Assembly (NCBI GenBank): GCA_029263015.1
Contig: JAJCYI010000046.1
Coordinates: 1 to 55,216, forward strand
Length of the DNA stretch: 55,216 nt
Reading direction: 5' to 3'
DNA from: Saprospiraceae bacterium
GTDB lineage: Bacteria > Bacteroidota > Bacteroidia > Chitinophagales > Saprospiraceae
Below, piece after piece: positions 22,797 through 48,905 of the stretch. The notes below the pieces were generated by a model. That model was given only the letters and a program-made list of their open reading frames with translations. It was not told where the DNA came from and made no database searches. Position numbers and translations under genes: made by a program. Each line of letters starts with the position of its first letter. Within the stretch, counting starts at the first letter, position 1.

Positions 22797-23036
22797 AATT
22801 TTGAATATCTCTACCGTACACTTTTTTAACCGACCCCAGAGGGGTCAAATGTAGGTAGGAAGGTAAATATTAAAAATGTATGGATTTCGTGCCGTCAGGT
22901 ACGCAACGTTGCGTACCTGACGGCACGACCAACTACTTGTTCCATTTTTTTCTACCCACCTGACTGCCGTCAGGCAAGTTATTAGACCTCTAACGAGGTC
23001 AGAATAAAAAGTGTATGGTTGAGAATTTTGAATATC
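22797..23036. mobile_element. MITE-like element copy 1 with flanking direct repeats
   Basis: The element spans 22809-23023. Terminal inverted repeats are CTCTACCGTACAC (22809-22821) and GTGTATGGTTGAG (23011-23023), 11 of 13 matching. A 13-bp direct repeat, AATTTTGAATATC, borders it at 22797-22809 and 23024-23036 and looks like a target-site duplication. A second copy with the same ends lies at 30610-30817. The centre holds a 38-bp perfect palindrome. There is no coding region, so mobilisation would need a transposase elsewhere. This element fills most of the queD-subtilase gap. Confidence 0.75.
22889..22926. repeat. 38-bp perfect palindrome inside MITE copy 1
   Basis: Both strands read the same over 38 bases: 19-bp arms starting GTGCCGTCAGGTACG meet at AACGTT with no loop. 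As DNA it could form a cruciform; as RNA it is a hairpin. A related short palindrome (CTGACTGCCGTCAGG) follows at 22964-22978. Confidence 0.85.
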
Positions 23037-23051
23037 AAAACACCTACCTAT

Positions 23052-25049
23052 TCAGAATTTAATAAACCTATTTTGAAATAAAACGCTGTTCCCGGTACTC
23101 GCCAACACTTTTATAAAATAGGCTCCCGATGGCAAGTCTGCCACATCAATGGACAGGGTTTCCTGATCGATACCAAACACTTCCAATTGCTGCATGAGCT
23201 TTCCACTTACATTGAAAACAAGTACTGTCATATCGCGGGATTCCCAATCAGCAAAAAGAGAAAGTGCTCCACCGGCCGGATTGGGAGAAACCGACAGATC
23301 GCCGTTGCCTGCCATTCGGACAGAAACAACTTTGGAATACTCAAAACTACCGTCAATGTCCACCATATTCAAGCGGTAATAATTGACACCCGTCCCAGGG
23401 TTTTTATCCAAAAAACTATAACCTGGTGAGGAAGGGGAAAATGGCACTTTGCCAGGGCTTTTCCATTCTGTCCCGTTAACCGAATGTTCTATTTCAAAAT
23501 GGTTGAGGCTTCCTGGCAGGGCCACTGCCCAATCCAGTAGGACACCTTCGCTAGCCAATATGCCGGTAAATTTGACCAGTTCCACAGGTAGCAGGACCAA
23601 TGCCGAATTGACCGCTGCCTCTACATCAATGATGCCGTGACCAAAAACATTATTGGGTACAGAAGTAGGAGTGTCGTTGCCACACCCCTGGCTTGTCGTC
23701 TGCCCTCCCGCTGTGGTTTCAAGCAGGTCTTCAATTTGTGCAACTTGCCCAGCCAAAGAAGGGTCGGCGGAAATCAGCAGTGCCACTGCACCAGCCACAT
23801 GCGGCCCCGCCATGCTAGTGCCGTTCCAGGTGGCATATGCCCCATTCCGGATGCAAGAACGAACACTGACGCCCGGTGCAGCGACATCGGGTTTCATGCG
23901 GTCACTGCCGTCCACCGTTACAGGGCCTCTGCTGCTAAAACTACCAATACCGTTGCTCGAATTTGACGCCCCAACAGAAAAACTTCCGTCGAAAATGGCC
24001 GGCGGGGCATTGACTGTTTCGCAATTACTGCCTGAATTCCCTGCGGAAGCCACCACCACGACGCCTGCCCCCAAGAGGTTGTTGATAGCTGCTTCCATAT
24101 CACTCCAGTTGCCACTGTTACAACCTTCCGATGTTGGGCAGGCCCAAGAATTATTGATAACATGGGGCGCTTTTGAGGGATCAGCATTTTGATCGTTCAA
24201 GTCAGTCGGAGCGAGCAGCCACTCAAAGCATTCGATATAGGTAGTTGGTGTTCCGTTTCCGTTGTCCATGTTTCGGCAGCCGATCCATTTGGCGTCAGGG
24301 GCTACCCCGATTTCGTTGGCCCCATCGAGGCCTACCATCGTTCCCATGGTGTGGGTGCCGTGGTTGTGATCGTCACAAGGTTCAGTTGAATTGACCCCAC
24401 AATCGTTGGACCCTGAGTTGGAATGGATGGCGTCGTGCCAGTTATAGTTGTGGTCAGAAGATTGATTGCTCTCGTCCCATCCACGATATTTCAATTTGAG
24501 AGCTGCTACGTCCCAGTCGTAGCCAGTGTCCTGCCCAGCTACCACCACATCCTCGCCTTTGTAGCCCATTGCCCAGACGTCATCGGCATTGATGTTGGTG
24601 ATGCCCCATTCGAGGGTTCGGAGTCCAGTTTCATCGCGGACAGGTTCTTCTAAGCGAACAACTGGATTTGAATGGATTTCGGCCACTTCCGGCAACTGTG
24701 CCACTGCTTTGAGCAATGCAGGACCACCCTCTGCCCACACCGCATTGATGATCCAGAAAGATCGGTGTTGTACCTGGAATTCTTCAATGGTTTTCAATAC
24801 ATTGAGCTGCGACCGCTCTGCGGTTTCCGAAAGTTTTTGGAAAACATATGCCCCTTTTTCTTCTTTTTTGGTCAGAAATTGTGCTTCGGTGATATTGGCC
24901 TGTTCAGTGAGCACAATGAGGAAATCAACTTCCTGCCCGGCTGAGGCAGTTTGCCAAACGAAAGGGTCTATTTTGGAAAACCAATCCTGGCCTGTGGCGA
25001 AAAGGAAAAAGAACAGGAAGATGAAAGTACATTGTGCCTCAGTCCTCAT
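23052..25049 (-). CDS. Secreted subtilisin-family (S8) serine protease, T9SS type A tail
   Basis: A 665-residue exported protease. A signal peptide lies at about residues 6-20 (FTFIFLFFFLFATG-like core). An I9-like propeptide region (about 40-135) precedes the catalytic domain. The triad is Asp174 (GQDTGYDWD), His230 (NHGTHTMGT) and Ser412 (NGTSMAGPHVAG), with oxyanion Asn338 (ASAGNSG). A fibronectin-like region links to the T9SS type A tail (LSVSPNPAGG..., ending FQNRFIKF). The catalytic domain resembles bacillopeptidase F-like subtilases. The gene stands alone on the minus strand; its start abuts the decayed ATPase fragment, so its promoter may lie within that fragment. Confidence 0.93.
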   Translation of the reverse strand: MRTEAQCTFIFLFFFLFATGQDWFSKIDPFVWQTASAGQEVDFLIVLTEQANITEAQFLTKKEEKGAYVFQKLSETAERSQLNVLKTIEEFQVQHRSFWIINAVWAEGGPALLKAVAQLPEVAEIHSNPVVRLEEPVRDETGLRTLEWGITNINADDVWAMGYKGEDVVVAGQDTGYDWDVAALKLKYRGWDESNQSSDHNYNWHDAIHSNSGSNDCGVNSTEPCDDHNHGTHTMGTMVGLDGANEIGVAPDAKWIGCRNMDNGNGTPTTYIECFEWLLAPTDLNDQNADPSKAPHVINNSWACPTSEGCNSGNWSDMEAAINNLLGAGVVVVASAGNSGSNCETVNAPPAIFDGSFSVGASNSSNGIGSFSSRGPVTVDGSDRMKPDVAAPGVSVRSCIRNGAYATWNGTSMAGPHVAGAVALLISADPSLAGQVAQIEDLLETTAGGQTTSQGCGNDTPTSVPNNVFGHGIIDVEAAVNSALVLLPVELVKFTGILASEGVLLDWAVALPGSLNHFEIEHSVNGTEWKSPGKVPFSPSSPGYSFLDKNPGTGVNYYRLNMVDIDGSFEYSKVVSVRMAGNGDLSVSPNPAGGALSLFADWESRDMTVLVFNVSGKLMQQLEVFGIDQETLSIDVADLPSGAYFIKVLASTGNSVLFQNRFIKF

Positions 25050-25099
25050 ATGATTAAATTTAGTGAATTATTTCTCAATCGATTATGGGGCAGAGGGGA

Positions 25100-25565
25100 A
25101 TGCTACAAAGTTATTATTCTTTTTTTGGAAAAACACCAGCAGGCAAAGTTTCAAAAAGGGTTTTCCTATAAAAATCAAAATTACCTGATATGGATCATTT
25201 TTCTGATCGGACTGCGGCAATACGAGCGCCTTAATGATTCATCGCTCATAGGTAACCTTTTTGAAAACCTCACCATTGCAGAAATTTTGAAAAGAAACCA
25301 CCACCAATACCAGCTCCATGATTATTGGTTTTGGCGGGATTCCAATGCACGTGAAATTGACTTATTGACAAAGAGGGCTGGTGGTTTTGATATAATTGAA
25401 ATAAAGTCAACCCAGACTGTTTTGCCAAAACAATTTAAACAACTGGATTATTTTACAGAAATATCAAAAGGGAAGGTGAAAAGTTAAACATTGATTTATG
25501 GCGGGGAAGATGGCCATGATAGGACAGAGTATATAGTAGACTTGTTTCACTATGCAAATCAATGA
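25100..25565 (+). pseudogene. Decayed DUF4143 ATPase (C-terminal fragment with nonsense codon)
   Basis: From about 25195 the reading matches the C-terminal third of the ATPase at 10725-11879 closely (LIGLRQYERL, NHHQYQLHDYWFWRD, EIDLLTKRAGGFDIIEIKST). The ATP-binding half is missing and the stretch before 25195 is scrambled. The frame then hits TAA at 25485-25487, where the intact paralogue has Lys in GRVKNKTLIYGG; reading on gives TLIYGGEDGHDRTEY, so this is a nonsense mutation. The final residues differ because an inverted-repeat element begins at 25537. No function is expected. Confidence 0.85.
25106..25113 (-). promoter_or_regulatory. Possible promoter -7 box of the subtilase gene
   Basis: On the minus strand the sequence is TAACTTTG, matching the Bacteroidota -7 consensus TAnnTTTG, about 57 bp upstream of the protease ATG. 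No TTTG box was found at the usual 17-23 bp spacing, so support is partial. Confidence 0.35.
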
Positions 25566-25763
25566 ATTACGAATAAAATATTTTAATAAATTGAATTTTA
25601 TATTTTCGTAAAATATAAATAATTATTCGTTAAAAATTGATTATCAATCAATTACAAAACTGAATTTAAATTTATTGAATAGTAGAGTTTTTGCGTCAGT
25701 TTTTAGATTAAATTAAAAACAAATAAATTCTGATAATCAATTAGTTATGACAGAACAAGTCTA
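25537..25763. mobile_element. AT-rich inverted-repeat element at the end of the ATPase pseudogene
   Basis: The ends are TAGACTTGTTT (25537-25547) and GAACAAGTCTA (25753-25763), inverted copies with one mismatch in 11. The 227-bp interior is very AT-rich, has no gene, and contains a 10-bp hairpin (25597-25606 with 25610-25619). The left end begins inside the pseudogene, just where its similarity to the intact paralogue stops, as expected for an insertion. No clear target duplication was seen. It fills the space before the Toprim-like gene. Confidence 0.6.
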
Positions 25764-25789
25764 GTAAAACGATGGGATGATGTGTGAAA

Positions 25790-26440
25790 TTACACTTCAC
25801 TATCCTTATCAATTTCCATAATCCGTTCACAGAATACTTTCAGGCTTGGGTTTAAATGATAGATCTGACGAATTTTCTTTTTAAAATGTATTGACATCTT
25901 CGAATAATATTTCAAATCTTTAGCATCAATATAAAATCCCTCTTTTTGTTTCAATATTCGGTTGAGTGCATCTTTGCAACCGGTGATTTTAGAGGCTGTT
26001 GTTTTTCTGTTACTGAAATAGATGGGAAGCAACCAGCATTCCAATTGATGAACAGAAACTCCAAAAATAATACGTTCTTTAAATTCTTCGAAAAAGCCAT
26101 CTTCGCCATCAATCAACGAAATCAAAAAATCAATTACTTTTTCTATTATCTCTTCTACAGATAAATTCGATGACAATTCGACCTTGTATTTTTCTGGCAA
26201 TTGTTCACTAATCAAAACATCCGTATCCACCTGAACAATTAAATAGTCGTTAAAACCTATAGCAGCTCGGAATTCATCAGAACAACAATAATCAAATACT
26301 TTTACCCAATTTCCAGGTTTATCCGGTGCTGGCTGCAATCGGGTGATAGGTAGGTCAGGGTTTTTAAAAATACCATATAATATATTTTCGATGACGACTT
26401 GGTCGGTCGGCCCTTCAGTGACAAGCCCAAATGAATGCAT
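25790..26440 (-). CDS. Toprim-like protein, partner of the adjacent ATPase
   Basis: A 216-residue protein with a Toprim-type signature: E9 in LVTEGPTD near the N-terminus, then D72 and D74 in IVQVDTDVL, which together form the usual Mg-binding Glu plus DxD set. A later HQLECWLLPIYF resembles the 'E-x-W-L-L' helix of DUF4276-type Toprim proteins. The C-terminus is basic and helical. The start codon lies 3 bp after the stop of the ATPase gene, so the two form one operon. ATPase plus Toprim pairs occur in overcoming-lysogenization-defect (OLD)-like and PARIS antiphage systems; nuclease activity here is inference. Confidence 0.8.
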   Translation of the reverse strand: MHSFGLVTEGPTDQVVIENILYGIFKNPDLPITRLQPAPDKPGNWVKVFDYCCSDEFRAAIGFNDYLIVQVDTDVLISEQLPEKYKVELSSNLSVEEIIEKVIDFLISLIDGEDGFFEEFKERIIFGVSVHQLECWLLPIYFSNRKTTASKITGCKDALNRILKQKEGFYIDAKDLKYYSKMSIHFKKKIRQIYHLNPSLKVFCERIMEIDKDSEV

Positions 26441-26443
26441 GTT

Positions 26444-27724
26444 TTAAAAGTTTTTTGGTAGCCCTCCAATATAGCCTCTGATGAACGCTTCTGATAAACG
26501 CACTGGTTTCGTACCATTGGGGGATTTCTGCGGCATGATGCGACGTACTTTGGTGTGCCCATCTGCATTTCGATAAACGACGAAAAGACGCTGGTCATCA
26601 TCGGTCAAATCAAGGCCGTCCAATATAACTGGATTATGAGTAGTAAGGAGTGCCTGTTTATCATGGTCTTTTGCAAGTTGCGCCAATATTTTGATTAATT
26701 CGCTTCCCAGTTTTGGATTGAGTGCATTGTCGATATTATCAATGGAAAAGAAGTGTGGCGTTTCGTCGCTGATAAAAAGAGTTAAATAAAACAATAGATA
26801 TAAGAAGCCTTCATTAGCGCTACGCTGGTCAAAATACTGGAGGTCTTCGTCAAGGTAGGAATCTTTAATATTTATCCTTCTTTCAGTAAATTTTAAATCA
26901 TTGGGAATTTCAAAATCATCGAACCAGTCTATTAATTTTAAATGGTTTTTTATTTCTTTGAATTGATTGGATTTTTCCTCGGCGATAATGGAAACTAATT
27001 TAAATAATCCTTCGCCTCTTATGCCAAGAGGTTTTATTGCAGCTTCCTCCTCGAAGCGACGAAGAAAATGATTTTCAGGTGCATATATAAGAAATTTTGA
27101 GTAACTAATTAATTCCTTTATTTTTGATTGTTGTTTTTCGTATGATGTTTCCTCCTCGAATGCTATGCTTTTTAGATTTGCTAATTTTTTATGCTGAGAA
27201 GTTAATTGAGTTGAAAGGCTGACATATTTTTTTACTATTTCCTGAGTTAACGTCTCACCACTTTTTATTTTTAAGTCTAATTTTGCCATATCACTTGAAA
27301 ATTCATCATTTTGTTCCAATAATTGATTTAAATCTTCATCTGCCTTTTTTATTTTTTCAGCAATGTCTTCAAGCAATTTTTTAATACTGTGCTTGACATC
27401 CCAATCATTATAATGTCCATTTTTAGATGAAATTTCAACAGTCCAACTTGAGGATTTACTTGAAAACCCTAAAGTGATTGGACTGTTGAAATCTTCTTCA
27501 TTAAATCCAGACTTCATTAACTGTGGTGCGGTAACTCGTACACCTCGATTTGCTAAAAATTCATCACTCAATTTATCTTCAACCTCAGCACTCCCCATTG
27601 CAATCGCTTCCAAAATATTCGACTTCCCACTTCCATTTGCACCTATGAAGATATTCAACCGCCCCAAGTCTAAGTCAAGCGATTGGACTGATTTAAAATT
27701 TTCTATTTTGATTGATTTTATCAT
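26444..27724 (-). CDS. AAA/ABC-type ATPase with coiled-coil insert, first gene of a two-gene module
   Basis: This 426-residue SMC/RecF-like ATPase begins MIKSIKIENFKSV, has Walker A GANGSGKSN (K34), a charged coiled-coil insert (about 110-210), a signature-like RSANEGF (301-307), and an H-loop TTHNP (H363). The Walker B strand reads HFFSIDNIDNALNP: the Asp (D329) is kept but the usual catalytic Glu is Asn (N330). It resembles the AAA_21/AAA_15 ATPases of RloA, OLD and PARIS AriA, which sense or load an effector. The Toprim-like effector candidate follows directly. The DNA is more AT-rich than the clpB gene next to it, which hints at acquisition. Confidence 0.85.
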   Translation of the reverse strand: MIKSIKIENFKSVQSLDLDLGRLNIFIGANGSGKSNILEAIAMGSAEVEDKLSDEFLANRGVRVTAPQLMKSGFNEEDFNSPITLGFSSKSSSWTVEISSKNGHYNDWDVKHSIKKLLEDIAEKIKKADEDLNQLLEQNDEFSSDMAKLDLKIKSGETLTQEIVKKYVSLSTQLTSQHKKLANLKSIAFEEETSYEKQQSKIKELISYSKFLIYAPENHFLRRFEEEAAIKPLGIRGEGLFKLVSIIAEEKSNQFKEIKNHLKLIDWFDDFEIPNDLKFTERRINIKDSYLDEDLQYFDQRSANEGFLYLLFYLTLFISDETPHFFSIDNIDNALNPKLGSELIKILAQLAKDHDKQALLTTHNPVILDGLDLTDDDQRLFVVYRNADGHTKVRRIMPQKSPNGTKPVRLSEAFIRGYIGGLPKNF

Positions 27725-27756
27725 TTGTAATTTTATGATCTGTTGAAATTACATAA

Positions 27757-27764
27757 CAAAGTTA
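27757..27764 (-). promoter_or_regulatory. Candidate -7 promoter box of the ATPase/Toprim operon
   Basis: The minus strand reads TAACTTTG, a full match to TAnnTTTG, about 33 bp upstream of the ATPase start. A TTTG at -33 was not found at normal spacing. The position is consistent with a short leader and a promoter separate from clpB. Confidence 0.45.
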
Positions 27765-27867
27765 ACAATATCCATCTTCATATTGTCATGTTAAGCAATT
27801 AGAAAAAACGGCCAAGCAGTCAACACCACCCAGCCGTTCAAATCATATCTATGAGAAAAGCTAATTC

Positions 27868-30501
27868 TTATCCACTCACAACCGCCGCCTCCCCTTTTGG
27901 CGCACGGAAAACCACTTTTCCGTCAAACACATCCAACATATAGCGTCCGCCCGTCAACACTTTGTTTAATAACATTTGCCTTGACAGTTCATTCAGCACT
28001 TTTTTCTGGATCACCCGCTTCACTGGCCTGGCACCAAATTCAGGATTGAAACCCTCGTCGGTGATGTACTCGGCAAATTGCGGCGTGAAAGTCAGATCGA
28101 TGTCCTGTGCTTTCACCAGTTCTACTACTTGCTCCAATTGCAGGTCAACGATGGCCCGGATGTCTTTGGCAGACAGCGGTTGGAACATGATTACCTCATC
28201 AATCCGGTTGAGGAACTCAGGCCGCATTGATTTTTTCAGCAAGTCGAACAACTGCGTCTTGGTATTTTCAATCACCTCTTCCCGGTTGTTACTATCTATC
28301 CGTTCAAAATTCTCACGGATCAAATGACTGCCAAGGTTGGAGGTCATGATGACGATGGTGTTTTTGAAATTCGCCACCCTGCCTTTGTTATCGGTCAGTC
28401 GGCCATCTTCCAGCACTTGCAGGAGGATGTTAAATACGTCAGGGTGCGCCTTTTCTATTTCATCCAACAGGACAACAGAATAAGGCTTTCGGCGCACAGC
28501 TTCCGTCAGCTGGCCGCCCTCATCGTAACCCACATAACCAGGAGGCGCTCCAACCAAACGGCTCACGCTGTGGCGCTCCTGATACTCGCTCATATCAATT
28601 CGGGTCATCAGGTTTTCATCATTAAACAAATACTCGGCGAGGGCTTTGGCCAGCTCCGTTTTGCCGACCCCAGTCGTGCCAAGGAAGAGGAACGAACCAA
28701 TGGGACGCTTGTCGCTTCCCAGCCCAGTGCGGCTCCGGCGTATGGCATCGGAAACGGCCTCCACCGCTTCGTCCTGGCCCACGACCCGTTTGTGCAGTTC
28801 TTCTTCGAGCAGGAGCAGTTTGTCCCGCTCGCTCTGCAACATCCGGGTGACAGGAACACCGGTCCATCGGGCAACAATTTCTGCGATGTCCTCGGCATCC
28901 ACTTCTTCTTTTACGAGGAGTTTGCCGCCCTCTTGCATTTCTTTTAGTTTTTCATTGAAATGAGCAAGTCGTTTTTCCACTTCTGGGATGCGACCATAAC
29001 GGATTTCGGCCACTTCGCTAAAATTTCCTTCCCGCTCCATGCGGCTGGCTTCGAGTTTCAATTGCTCGATCTCCTCTTTTGCCTGCTGTATGCCGTTCAC
29101 TACTTGCCGCTCACCTTCCCATTTAGCTTTTAGGGCATTCCGGCGCTCCTCGTGGTTGGCGAGGTCTTCATTTATTTTTTTGATTTTGGCTTTGTCATTT
29201 TCCCTTTTCATAGCCTCCCGCTCAATCTCCAACTGGCGGATTTTACGTTCCACCTCATCAAGTTCTTCCGGCATCGAATTCATTTCCAGCCGCAATTTTG
29301 CCGCAGCCTCGTCAATCAGGTCAATGGCCTTGTCCGGCAATTGACGCTCAGTGATATAACGACTGGAAAGTTGTACTGCCGATATGATCGCTTCGTCCTT
29401 TATATTGATCTTATGGTGCGTCTCGTACCGCTCTTTCAACCCCCGCAAAATGGAGATGGCATCCTCCTCGTTCGGTTCATCTACGAGCACGGTTTGGAAA
29501 CGCCGTTCAAGGGCTTTGTCACTTTCAAAATACTTTTGGTATTCGCTCAAAGTGGTAGCCCCGATGGCACGGAGTTCGCCGCGAGCAAGGGCTGGTTTGA
29601 GGATGTTGGCAGCGTCCATTGCCCCTTGTGATTTGCCCGCACCAACGAGGGTGTGTATTTCATCAATAAAAAGAAAAATCCGGCCCTCGGATCCCCCTAC
29701 TTCTTTCATCACAGACTTGAGGCGCTCCTCGAATTCACCCTGGTACTTCGCCCCAGCGATCAGGGCACCCATGTCCAGGGCATATATTTCTTTGTCCCGC
29801 AGGTCTTCCGGCACGTCTTCATTGACGATGCGGTGAGCAAGGCCCTCAGCAATGGCTGTTTTACCTACGCCCGGTTCACCAATCAAAATAGGATTGTTCT
29901 TTGTCCGGCGGGCAAGGATGTGCAGCAAGCGACGTATTTCTTCGTCTCGTCCAATCACAGGATCAAGTTTGCCGTTGCGGGCACGTTCGTTGAGGTTGAC
30001 AGCGTATTTTGACAATGCATTATAGCTTTCTTCGGCACTCGCAGTGGTCACTTTACTGCCTTTGCGCAGGTCGTTGATTGCAGCCTTTAATTCTTTTTCA
30101 GAAATGCCGCTGTCCTTTAGCATCTGGGAAACATTGCTCTTGGTAGTGAGCAGGCCAAGCAACAGGTGTTCCAGCGAGACATACTCATCACCGAACGTTT
30201 TAAGGTACGTGTTCGCCTTTTGGATAACGCTGTTTGTTTCCCGAGAAATGTACTGCCCGCTGTTGTCCCCACCGCCACTGACCTTTGGGTAACTGCCCAC
30301 TACGCTGTCGGCGGCTCTTTTCAGTACGTCATAATTTACCCCGAGTTTTTTGATGACAAACGGCGTCACGCTCTCGTCCACTTCCATAATGGCCTTGAGC
30401 AGGTGGCCGGGTTCTATTTGTTGGTTGCCATGTTCCATAGCGAGCTGCTGTGCCCGTTGGATGGCTTCCTGCGATTTGATGGTTAGGTTTTTTAAGTTCA
30501 T
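27868..30501 (-). CDS. clpB: ATP-dependent disaggregase ClpB
   Basis: A hexameric chaperone that, with DnaK/DnaJ/GrpE, pulls proteins out of aggregates. The 877-residue protein has the Clp N-domain (about 1-145), the first AAA domain with [13 protein letters not shown] and [12 protein letters not shown], the long coiled-coil middle domain (about 410-530, Glu/Lys/Arg-rich), and the second AAA domain with [13 protein letters not shown] and LLDEIEKAH, plus the C-terminal D2 small domain. No ClpP-binding loop was noticed, in line with ClpB. A single-gene unit; a CIRCE- or sigma-32-type site was not recognised upstream. Confidence 0.97.
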
Positions 30502-30598
30502 TGCTTTATTTATTTAAAAATGGAGAATTGAAAATGGAGAATTTGCCCGTTCAATAGACTTGTTCCTTATTTGCGAACAAGCCTAATAAATCCATTTT

Positions 30599-30828
30599 AT
30601 ACTATTTTTCTCTACCGTACACTTTTTTAAATTTATCGAATGTTTCCGATCGGACCGCCGCCAAGGCGATCCGATCGACCCTTGGAGGGAAAAATGGTGC
30701 ATCTGATCTATATTGTTCGGTCGGATCGGCTAAGCGCCGGTCCGATCGAGTAATGCCAACCTATTTGTCTCCATTGAAACAGAAGAAATTGACTAACTTA
30801 AAAAGTGTACGGTAGAGAATACTATTTT
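30599..30828. mobile_element. MITE-like element copy 2 with flanking direct repeats
   Basis: The element spans 30610-30817. Its ends, CTCTACCGTACAC (30610-30622) and GTGTACGGTAGAG (30805-30817), are perfect inverted repeats and the match continues inward through T/A runs. A 10-bp direct repeat, ATACTATTTT, flanks it at 30599-30608 and 30819-30828. Copy 1 at 22809-23023 shares the ends and the CCAAC...TTGT...TCCATT stretch near 30755, but the palindromic centre differs. Here the centre has two GC-rich hairpins (30647-30677 and 30717-30749). No open reading frame is present. Confidence 0.75.
30647..30749. repeat. Twin-hairpin cassette in MITE copy 2
   Basis: Hairpin one (30647-30677) pairs CGATCGGACCGCC with GGCGATCCGATCG with one mismatch that becomes a G-U pair in minus-strand RNA. 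Hairpin two (30717-30749) is similar and roughly mirrors the first. The cassette recurs in reverse orientation at 48764-48889, including the CGAATGTT border and a shared CTTGGAG...AAAAATGG spacer. Confidence 0.75.
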
Positions 30829-48763: not shown

Positions 48764-48889
48764 CCCCGATCGGACCGGCGCTTAGCTGATCCGATCGACC
48801 AATTTAAAACGAGCACCCCATTTTTCTTGCAACCATCTGCTCCAAGAGTCGGTCGGATCGTCTAAGCAGCGGTCCGATCGGAACATTCG
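48764..48889. repeat. Second copy of the twin-hairpin cassette, no MITE ends
   Basis: Two GC-rich hairpins (48767-48797 and 48850-48881) built on CGATCGGACC...GGTCCGATCG are separated by about 50 bp. In reverse complement the whole block aligns with 30640-30749, including CGAATGTT at the edge and CTTGGAG in the spacer, but the CTCTACCGTACAC ends are missing. It lies upstream of the methyltransferase gene and downstream of the big T9SS gene. Confidence 0.75.
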
Positions 48890-48905
48890 GTACAATTCAA
48901 AATGG

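Follow-up and report, generated by a model that had tools for sequence, protein, structure and literature searches.

Unrelated hairpin interiors under common ends in probable IS4-type MITEs of Saprospiraceae

Two miniature elements in the window

The window, a stretch of 55,216 nt from a Saprospiraceae bacterium (contig JAJCYI010000046.1; genome G000 below), carries two short elements, one between convergent genes (element 1) and the other upstream of clpB, 107 bp from its start codon (element 2; Table 1). At up to three mismatches, the window contains four copies of the 19-nt end TCTCTACCGTACACTTTTT, and 100 shuffles contain none. The original prediction placed the elements at 22809-23023 and 30610-30817; both are present, with best boundaries TCTCTACC...GGTAGAGA that set them at 217 and 210 bp, too short for a transposase. 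It also described their ends as identical, and the ends are indeed shared, although the number of mismatches is 0 and 2 in element 1 (the 2 at the right end) and 0 and 0 in element 2. The direct repeats bordering the two elements differ in sequence, as had been claimed, but not in length: instead of 13 and 10 bp, we found exactly 10 bp at both sites, the 13-bp repeat at element 1 being the ATTTTGAATA 10-mer extended by matching bases within the element. Because the duplication is about 10 bp in both elements and IS4-family elements produce duplications of about this size (PMC2266710), its length is neither variable nor, as first thought, unlike that of common IS families.

Folded as single-stranded DNA, the elements reach z-scores of -11.65 (element 1) and -9.50 (element 2), and none of 200 shuffles was as good in either case. 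The palindrome in element 1, first given as 38 bp, has 21-nt arms without a spacer and measures 42 bp. The hairpin-GGTAG unit of this element is the sole one in the window, against a mean of 0.1 in 20 shuffles.

Table 1 Features of the two elements and related sequences in the window
Feature	Position	Strand	Remarks
Element 1, type A MITE	22808..23024	.	217 bp
Target duplication of element 1, left copy	22798..22807	.	ATTTTGAATA
Target duplication of element 1, right copy	23025..23034	.	10 bp, exact
Left terminal inverted repeat of element 1	22808..22826	+	exact
Hairpin GACCCC-AGA-GGGGTC + 7 nt + GGTAG of element 1	22832..22858	+	
Central perfect palindrome of element 1	22887..22928	.	21-nt arms; homologous to the MITE-2 centre (see text)
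Second hairpin of element 1	22985..23000	.	GACCTCTAACGAGGTC
Right terminal inverted repeat of element 1	23006..23024	-	2 mismatches
clpB	27868..30501	-	TIGR03346 above cut-off
Element 2, type B MITE	30609..30818	.	210 bp
Target duplication of element 2, left copy	30599..30608	.	ATACTATTTT
Target duplication of element 2, right copy	30819..30828	.	10 bp, exact
Left terminal inverted repeat of element 2	30609..30627	+	exact
Type B hairpin 1 in element 2	30647..30677	.	
Type B hairpin 2 in element 2	30718..30748	.	roughly inverted copy of hairpin 1
Right terminal inverted repeat of element 2	30800..30818	-	exact
Decayed type B interior without terminal repeats	48767..48902	-	76% over query 17-140

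In the 10 clpB loci of relatives that were matched by the element 2 region, the 19-nt end (up to three mismatches) is absent. A conserved GTGCCATG box, whose spacing was scored in four of six aligned relatives, lies upstream of clpB at a distance from the start codon of 102, 107, 107 and 108 nt in those four. The corresponding distance in the window is about 361 nt, or about 141 nt once element 2 and one repeat are removed. We therefore read the clpB loci of the congeners as element-free, a claim limited to the absence of the element and the spacing of the box because the bases to the left of the insertion cannot be aligned between species and the exact junction cannot be read. Elsewhere in the window, an AT-rich non-coding repeat at 25537-25769 has 11 further copies in the genome among the matches listed (84-95% identity) and one in the congener G010 (81%).

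Copies, target duplications and a longer element

The original prediction had further proposed searching the genome and its relatives with the ends, aligning the copies with their flanks and looking for a transposase gene bordered by the same ends. At up to one mismatch, the genome of the window holds 53 ends (22 forward, 31 reverse) and none of a reversed control pattern. Among 60 genomes, its own included, three carry the end, namely its own, G001 (15 ends) and G010 (3 ends), all of one genus; an order-wide draw of 396 genomes, again with its own and partly overlapping with the 60, added G384 (24 ends), from another genus of the same family, as the sole other carrier. Viral contigs gave three exact 17-nt matches: each of the three loci shows a single end with one or two mismatches and no pair, so we treat the matches as chance.

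From the loci fetched in these four genomes we obtained 29 distinct paired elements (ends with up to four mismatches, 20-330 bp apart), a set that is not a full census. The flanks agree at no fewer than 8 of 10 bases in 18 of these elements and at no fewer than 7 in 24, leaving five below 7; when flanks of different elements were paired as a control, the corresponding counts were 5 and 23 of 812 pairings. Since mismatches often fall at an edge of the 10-mer, a target duplication of 9-10 bp is probable. According to a crude frame caller, 23 of the 29 elements lie outside frames of at least 80 codons and six inside, and their orientation relative to genes is mixed. The MITE-like nature that had been proposed is thus supported by the many copies, by target duplications in most of them, by the element-free clpB loci and by a longer element with the same ends.

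This longer element is seen at contig ends. Contigs break inside repeats longer than the read overlap, and in G000 and G001 several have their first or last base 113-140 bases into an element with the 19-nt end. Such contig-end halves are of two kinds, one with a transposase C-terminus and the other without. Halves that came from opposite ends of a single IS would be expected to have flanks that pair by duplication, and such pairing was found. In G000, three halves pair with three (10, 8 and 8 of 10 bases; 26/30), and in G001 all four five-prime halves pair with four of the five three-prime halves (10, 9, 9 and 8 of 10; 36/40), one half being left single; none of 20,000 shuffles reached either result. 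Across these seven IS sites, 8-10 of 10 bases of the duplication match.

The open C-terminus at the three-prime IS end in G000 matches positions 255-320 of NF033591 (E 4.9e-4). A Pfam search with the 62-aa transposase C-terminus gave no family, and a search among solved structures gave no match. At a G001 locus (L072/L101, Saprospiraceae MAG contig JAIPBL010000123.1), a broken transposase lies beside an exact end; a 157-aa piece of it matches NF033591 (IS4 family, 1.6e-11, below the whole-protein cut-off) and Pfam DDE_Tnp_1 (0.001, below cut-off), and the C-terminal piece extends the NF033591 match. YxxR in the first piece and ExxxxxxK in the second, in two neighbouring frames of this copy, can be read as two parts of the IS4 YREK signature. 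Upstream lies another transposase-like frame, presumably ISAzo13-like. In none of the four genomes searched does an NF033591 score reach the whole-protein cut-off.

DNA, protein and family searches in G000 found no intact transposase between these ends, and protein searches of 60 relatives and a genome collection for an intact master IS returned only C-terminal or broken pieces beside the ends; the transposase gene looked for was, in this sense, found in part. Neither assembly (G000 or G001) contains the central part of the IS. An intact IS4-type gene of 392 aa at L184 was rejected as the master IS, its ends differing by eye, and plasmid matches were limited to distant IS4 transposases (35.3%, annotated as IS4 family). 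Judged from the sequence, the ends are common to the MITEs and to a longer element with a transposase C-terminus, which is known in pieces. In its duplications of about 10 bp this putative parent IS resembles the IS4 family, for which YREK and such duplications are described, and its parts of the YREK signature and its sub-cut-off similarity to NF033591 may point to the same family. Its ends start with TCTC and those listed for the IS4 subgroups with CA or CT; the word MITE is absent from the paper on this family (PMC2266710).

Four interiors, one of them also under other ends

The prediction of unrelated centres under fixed ends held and extends to four interiors: A and B in the genome of the window, D in G384 and E in G010. 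Representatives of the four are mutually unrelated, 124 to 471 of 500 shuffles reaching each observed score. When L071 (G010) is typed E by reading, against a script label of B, type B makes up 11 of the 29 paired elements. Every interior follows the same plan of end, hairpin, centre, hairpin and end, to which some type A copies add an extra hairpin, on both arms in L049 and L018 and on one in element 1. The type B hairpin also occurs alone: the 19-nt end was absent from all nine loci chosen for carrying this hairpin, which came from a copy search that scored 40 of 88 candidates (40 of 105 in its companion search), and a decayed pair of these hairpins stands in the window at 48767-48902.

A second family, MITE-2, has ends AACGTGAGTTCTGGATA... 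and was examined in three complete copies; its loci (L164-L167, L178 and L181-L183) are often at contig ends. Its duplication, AGAAT, is exact in L181 and matches at four of five bases in L167, and the third copy ends at a contig border. By eye only, the MITE-2 end (AACGTGAGTTCTGGATAA) resembles that of MITE239 of P. gingivalis (PMC4596501). The MITE-2 interior reads hairpin-AACATGGGTAG, 24-25 nt, CGTGCCGTAGGTACG...CGTACCTACGGCACG, CTACCCATGTT-hairpin, and that of type A reads hairpin-TAA(C/T)ATGGGTAG, 23-24 nt, CGTGCCGTCAGGTACG...CGTACCTGACGGCACG, ...CTACCTACATTT-hairpin, or in brief hairpin-GGTAG, central palindrome and CTACC-hairpin. Interior A and MITE-2 align with a score of 50, the best of 1,000 shuffles scoring 28, and the similarity of MITE-2 to D is borderline (2 of 500 shuffles reach the score). 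Only the plan and the centre are common to A and MITE-2, their hairpins being different in sequence. Given this homology under unrelated ends, we take one interior, A, to lie under two unrelated pairs of ends. Beside or inside the other elements at L120 and L178 there is a further repeat, which is bounded by CATCTTGTAACCC and contains the hairpins CGCCATTTTAATGGCG and CCTCGTTGAAACGAGG.

Units of a hairpin, 6-7 nt and GGTAG also occur near Y1 transposase genes. Eight of them form an array around one IS200-type transposase gene in G001 (L193, contig C14, about 855-1950), and one, CCGTCCCATTAGGGACGGAACATTGGTAG, nearly equal to the MITE-2 unit, lies at L191 in G000; at L205 a different hairpin fits the unit plan, and 16 of 19 Y1 loci have no hairpin-GGTAG unit. 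The strict unit is present in five of eight type A copies and none of three MITE-2 copies, and is absent from types B, D and E, of which one copy each was scanned. As in REP and REPIN sequences, there is an inverted pair of hairpins with a short GTAG-containing tag, and units stand beside Y1 genes (PMC3116915, PMC3733652, PMC6006769); Y1 genes of Bacteroidetes that are flanked by atypical structures with genomic copies have been noted (PMC6006769). Unlike the classical tag (GTAG/GTGG, 0-2 nt 5′ of the hairpin; PMC6006769), however, GGTAG lies on the other, 3′ side, 6-7 nt from the stem, and unlike in REP/RAYT systems the cassette sits inside DDE-transposon ends and the Y1 proteins, of which those at L191 and L193 were scored, fit the IS200 model (74.7 and 74.4; cut-off 55), their RAYT scores being 23.6 and 22.8 (cut-off 80). 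Because these proteins fit IS200/IS605 and not the RAYT cut-offs, and because the tag position is non-classical, we call the units REP-like only.

Origin of the interiors

DDE MITEs and REP-like hairpins are normally treated apart. Here we consider it likely that the two elements are MITEs, that an IS4-family transposase moves them in trans and that their interiors are independent REP-like hairpin cassettes. The transposase of an IS4-family IS with the same 19-nt ends would mobilise the MITEs in trans and make the 9-10-bp target duplications; if it requires the ends alone, the sequence between them would be free to change. As far as the IS ends can be read, the interiors would not be shrunken IS pieces, and the cassettes would have an existence of their own, in solitary hairpins (type B), next to Y1 genes of IS200 type and, for the type A module, in MITE-2. 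Interiors could be exchanged by nested insertion, by recombination or by template switching between hairpins. Nesting followed by recombination would be the simplest route for cassettes into shells, because L045 and L053 each have a MITE-2 end within IS4-type ends, and at L047 about 15 bp separate an IS4-type end from a complete MITE-2; the two nested insertions suggest a possible path of interior swapping. With four unrelated interiors under one pair of ends in two genera, and one interior under two unrelated pairs of ends, the history of the ends appears to be separate from that of the interiors.

The nested and adjacent cases would also be expected from simple nesting, in which one of the two, MITE-2 or an IS4-type shell, inserted into the other and one pair of ends was later lost by decay, with no need for an exchange process. 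We find this somewhat doubtful, since it does not sit well with hairpins that differ between A and MITE-2, and since contig ends truncate the two nested cases, leaving the other end of the shell out of view.

Bacterial MITEs are usually described as IS deletion remnants, and in such a classical birth each interior would be what internal deletion left, several related IS with the same ends having given rise to A, B, D and E. MITECca01 of Cardinium, likewise a Bacteroidota MITE, whose active parental IS is of IS982, keeps parental sequence within its ends (PMC9769881), and in this differs from our elements. Between about 120 bp of each G000 IS end and A, B or D, by contrast, similarity does not exceed chance (196 to 483 of 500 shuffles reach the score), and with E it is borderline at one end (66 and 20 of 500, the 20 being for the five-prime end). 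Interior A is, moreover, common to a MITE with other ends, and the type B hairpin occurs alone. A deletion origin therefore seems unlikely to us; an interior may still derive from deeper IS sequence, because about 120 bp of each IS end was available.

That the elements are static regulatory or terminator hairpins, such as attenuators or mRNA stabilisers, kept by selection and with incidental or ancient mobility, is distinctly unlikely. Strong folding and the position of element 1 between convergent genes favour it, as does the 20-bp central stem of type D, five pairs of which show changes on both sides across five copies in an alignment that included L154, whose right end was too poor for the paired-element set. 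Type A, however, has one such pair (33 of 500 shuffles reach this) and type B none, an Rfam scan of the window gave no match and orientation to genes is mixed. Covariation, which fits type D, type A weakly and type B not at all, was thus rejected as proof of a selected RNA structure, because self-correction of the palindrome would account for both-side changes without selection.

A Y1 (IS200/RAYT-type) transposase is highly improbable as the enzyme that moves the elements, which would then be REPINs whose terminal repeats only form part of a palindrome: type A does have inverted hairpin-GGTAG units like those beside Y1 genes, but the types without the unit, the IS4-type gene bounded by the same ends and the target duplications in 18 of 29 elements, which Y1 transposition is not known to produce, all speak against it.

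Beyond the preferred reading of trans-mobilised MITEs with independent cassettes, we can imagine, with little confidence, a two-layer modular system, in which DDE shells, with several unrelated kinds of end, would repeatedly acquire and swap palindromic cassettes, themselves capable of moving or multiplying by a single-strand Y1 route; two enzymes could then spread each cassette, the cargo being kept for its own spread or for steadying neighbouring RNA.

The original prediction regarded exchangeable cargo in fixed ends as unusual. The variable centre under fixed ends is real but has a precedent in P. gingivalis, in which BrickBuilt/MITEPgRS and MITE239/MITE700 have near-identical ends and unrelated interiors within pairs (PMC4596501). 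Those MITEs are also of Bacteroidota, intergenic and with ends that match IS ends, in 10-20 copies; they differ in their IS5-type ends, in short or irregular duplications and in interiors of tandem repeats instead of inverted hairpin cassettes, and the accessible part of that paper describes no interior common to different ends (PMC4596501). An interior common to unrelated ends, or REP-like cassettes in IS4-type MITEs, was not found in the literature searched, subscription papers being mostly outside its scope. Different interiors under the same ends are thus already known, and the interior shared between unrelated ends is the apparently new part. The finding connects DDE MITEs with REP-like hairpins, and the question of where MITE interiors originate becomes testable with long reads.

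Among the loci with ends there are also very short shells that retain both, at L002 (1498-1561, 64 bp; flanks 9/10), L008 (1498-1560, 63 bp; 8/10) and L096 (1501-1547, 47 bp; 4/10). At L012 (G000 C85, 11149-11545), a type A element is followed about 18 bp on by a type B end that is cut by the contig end.
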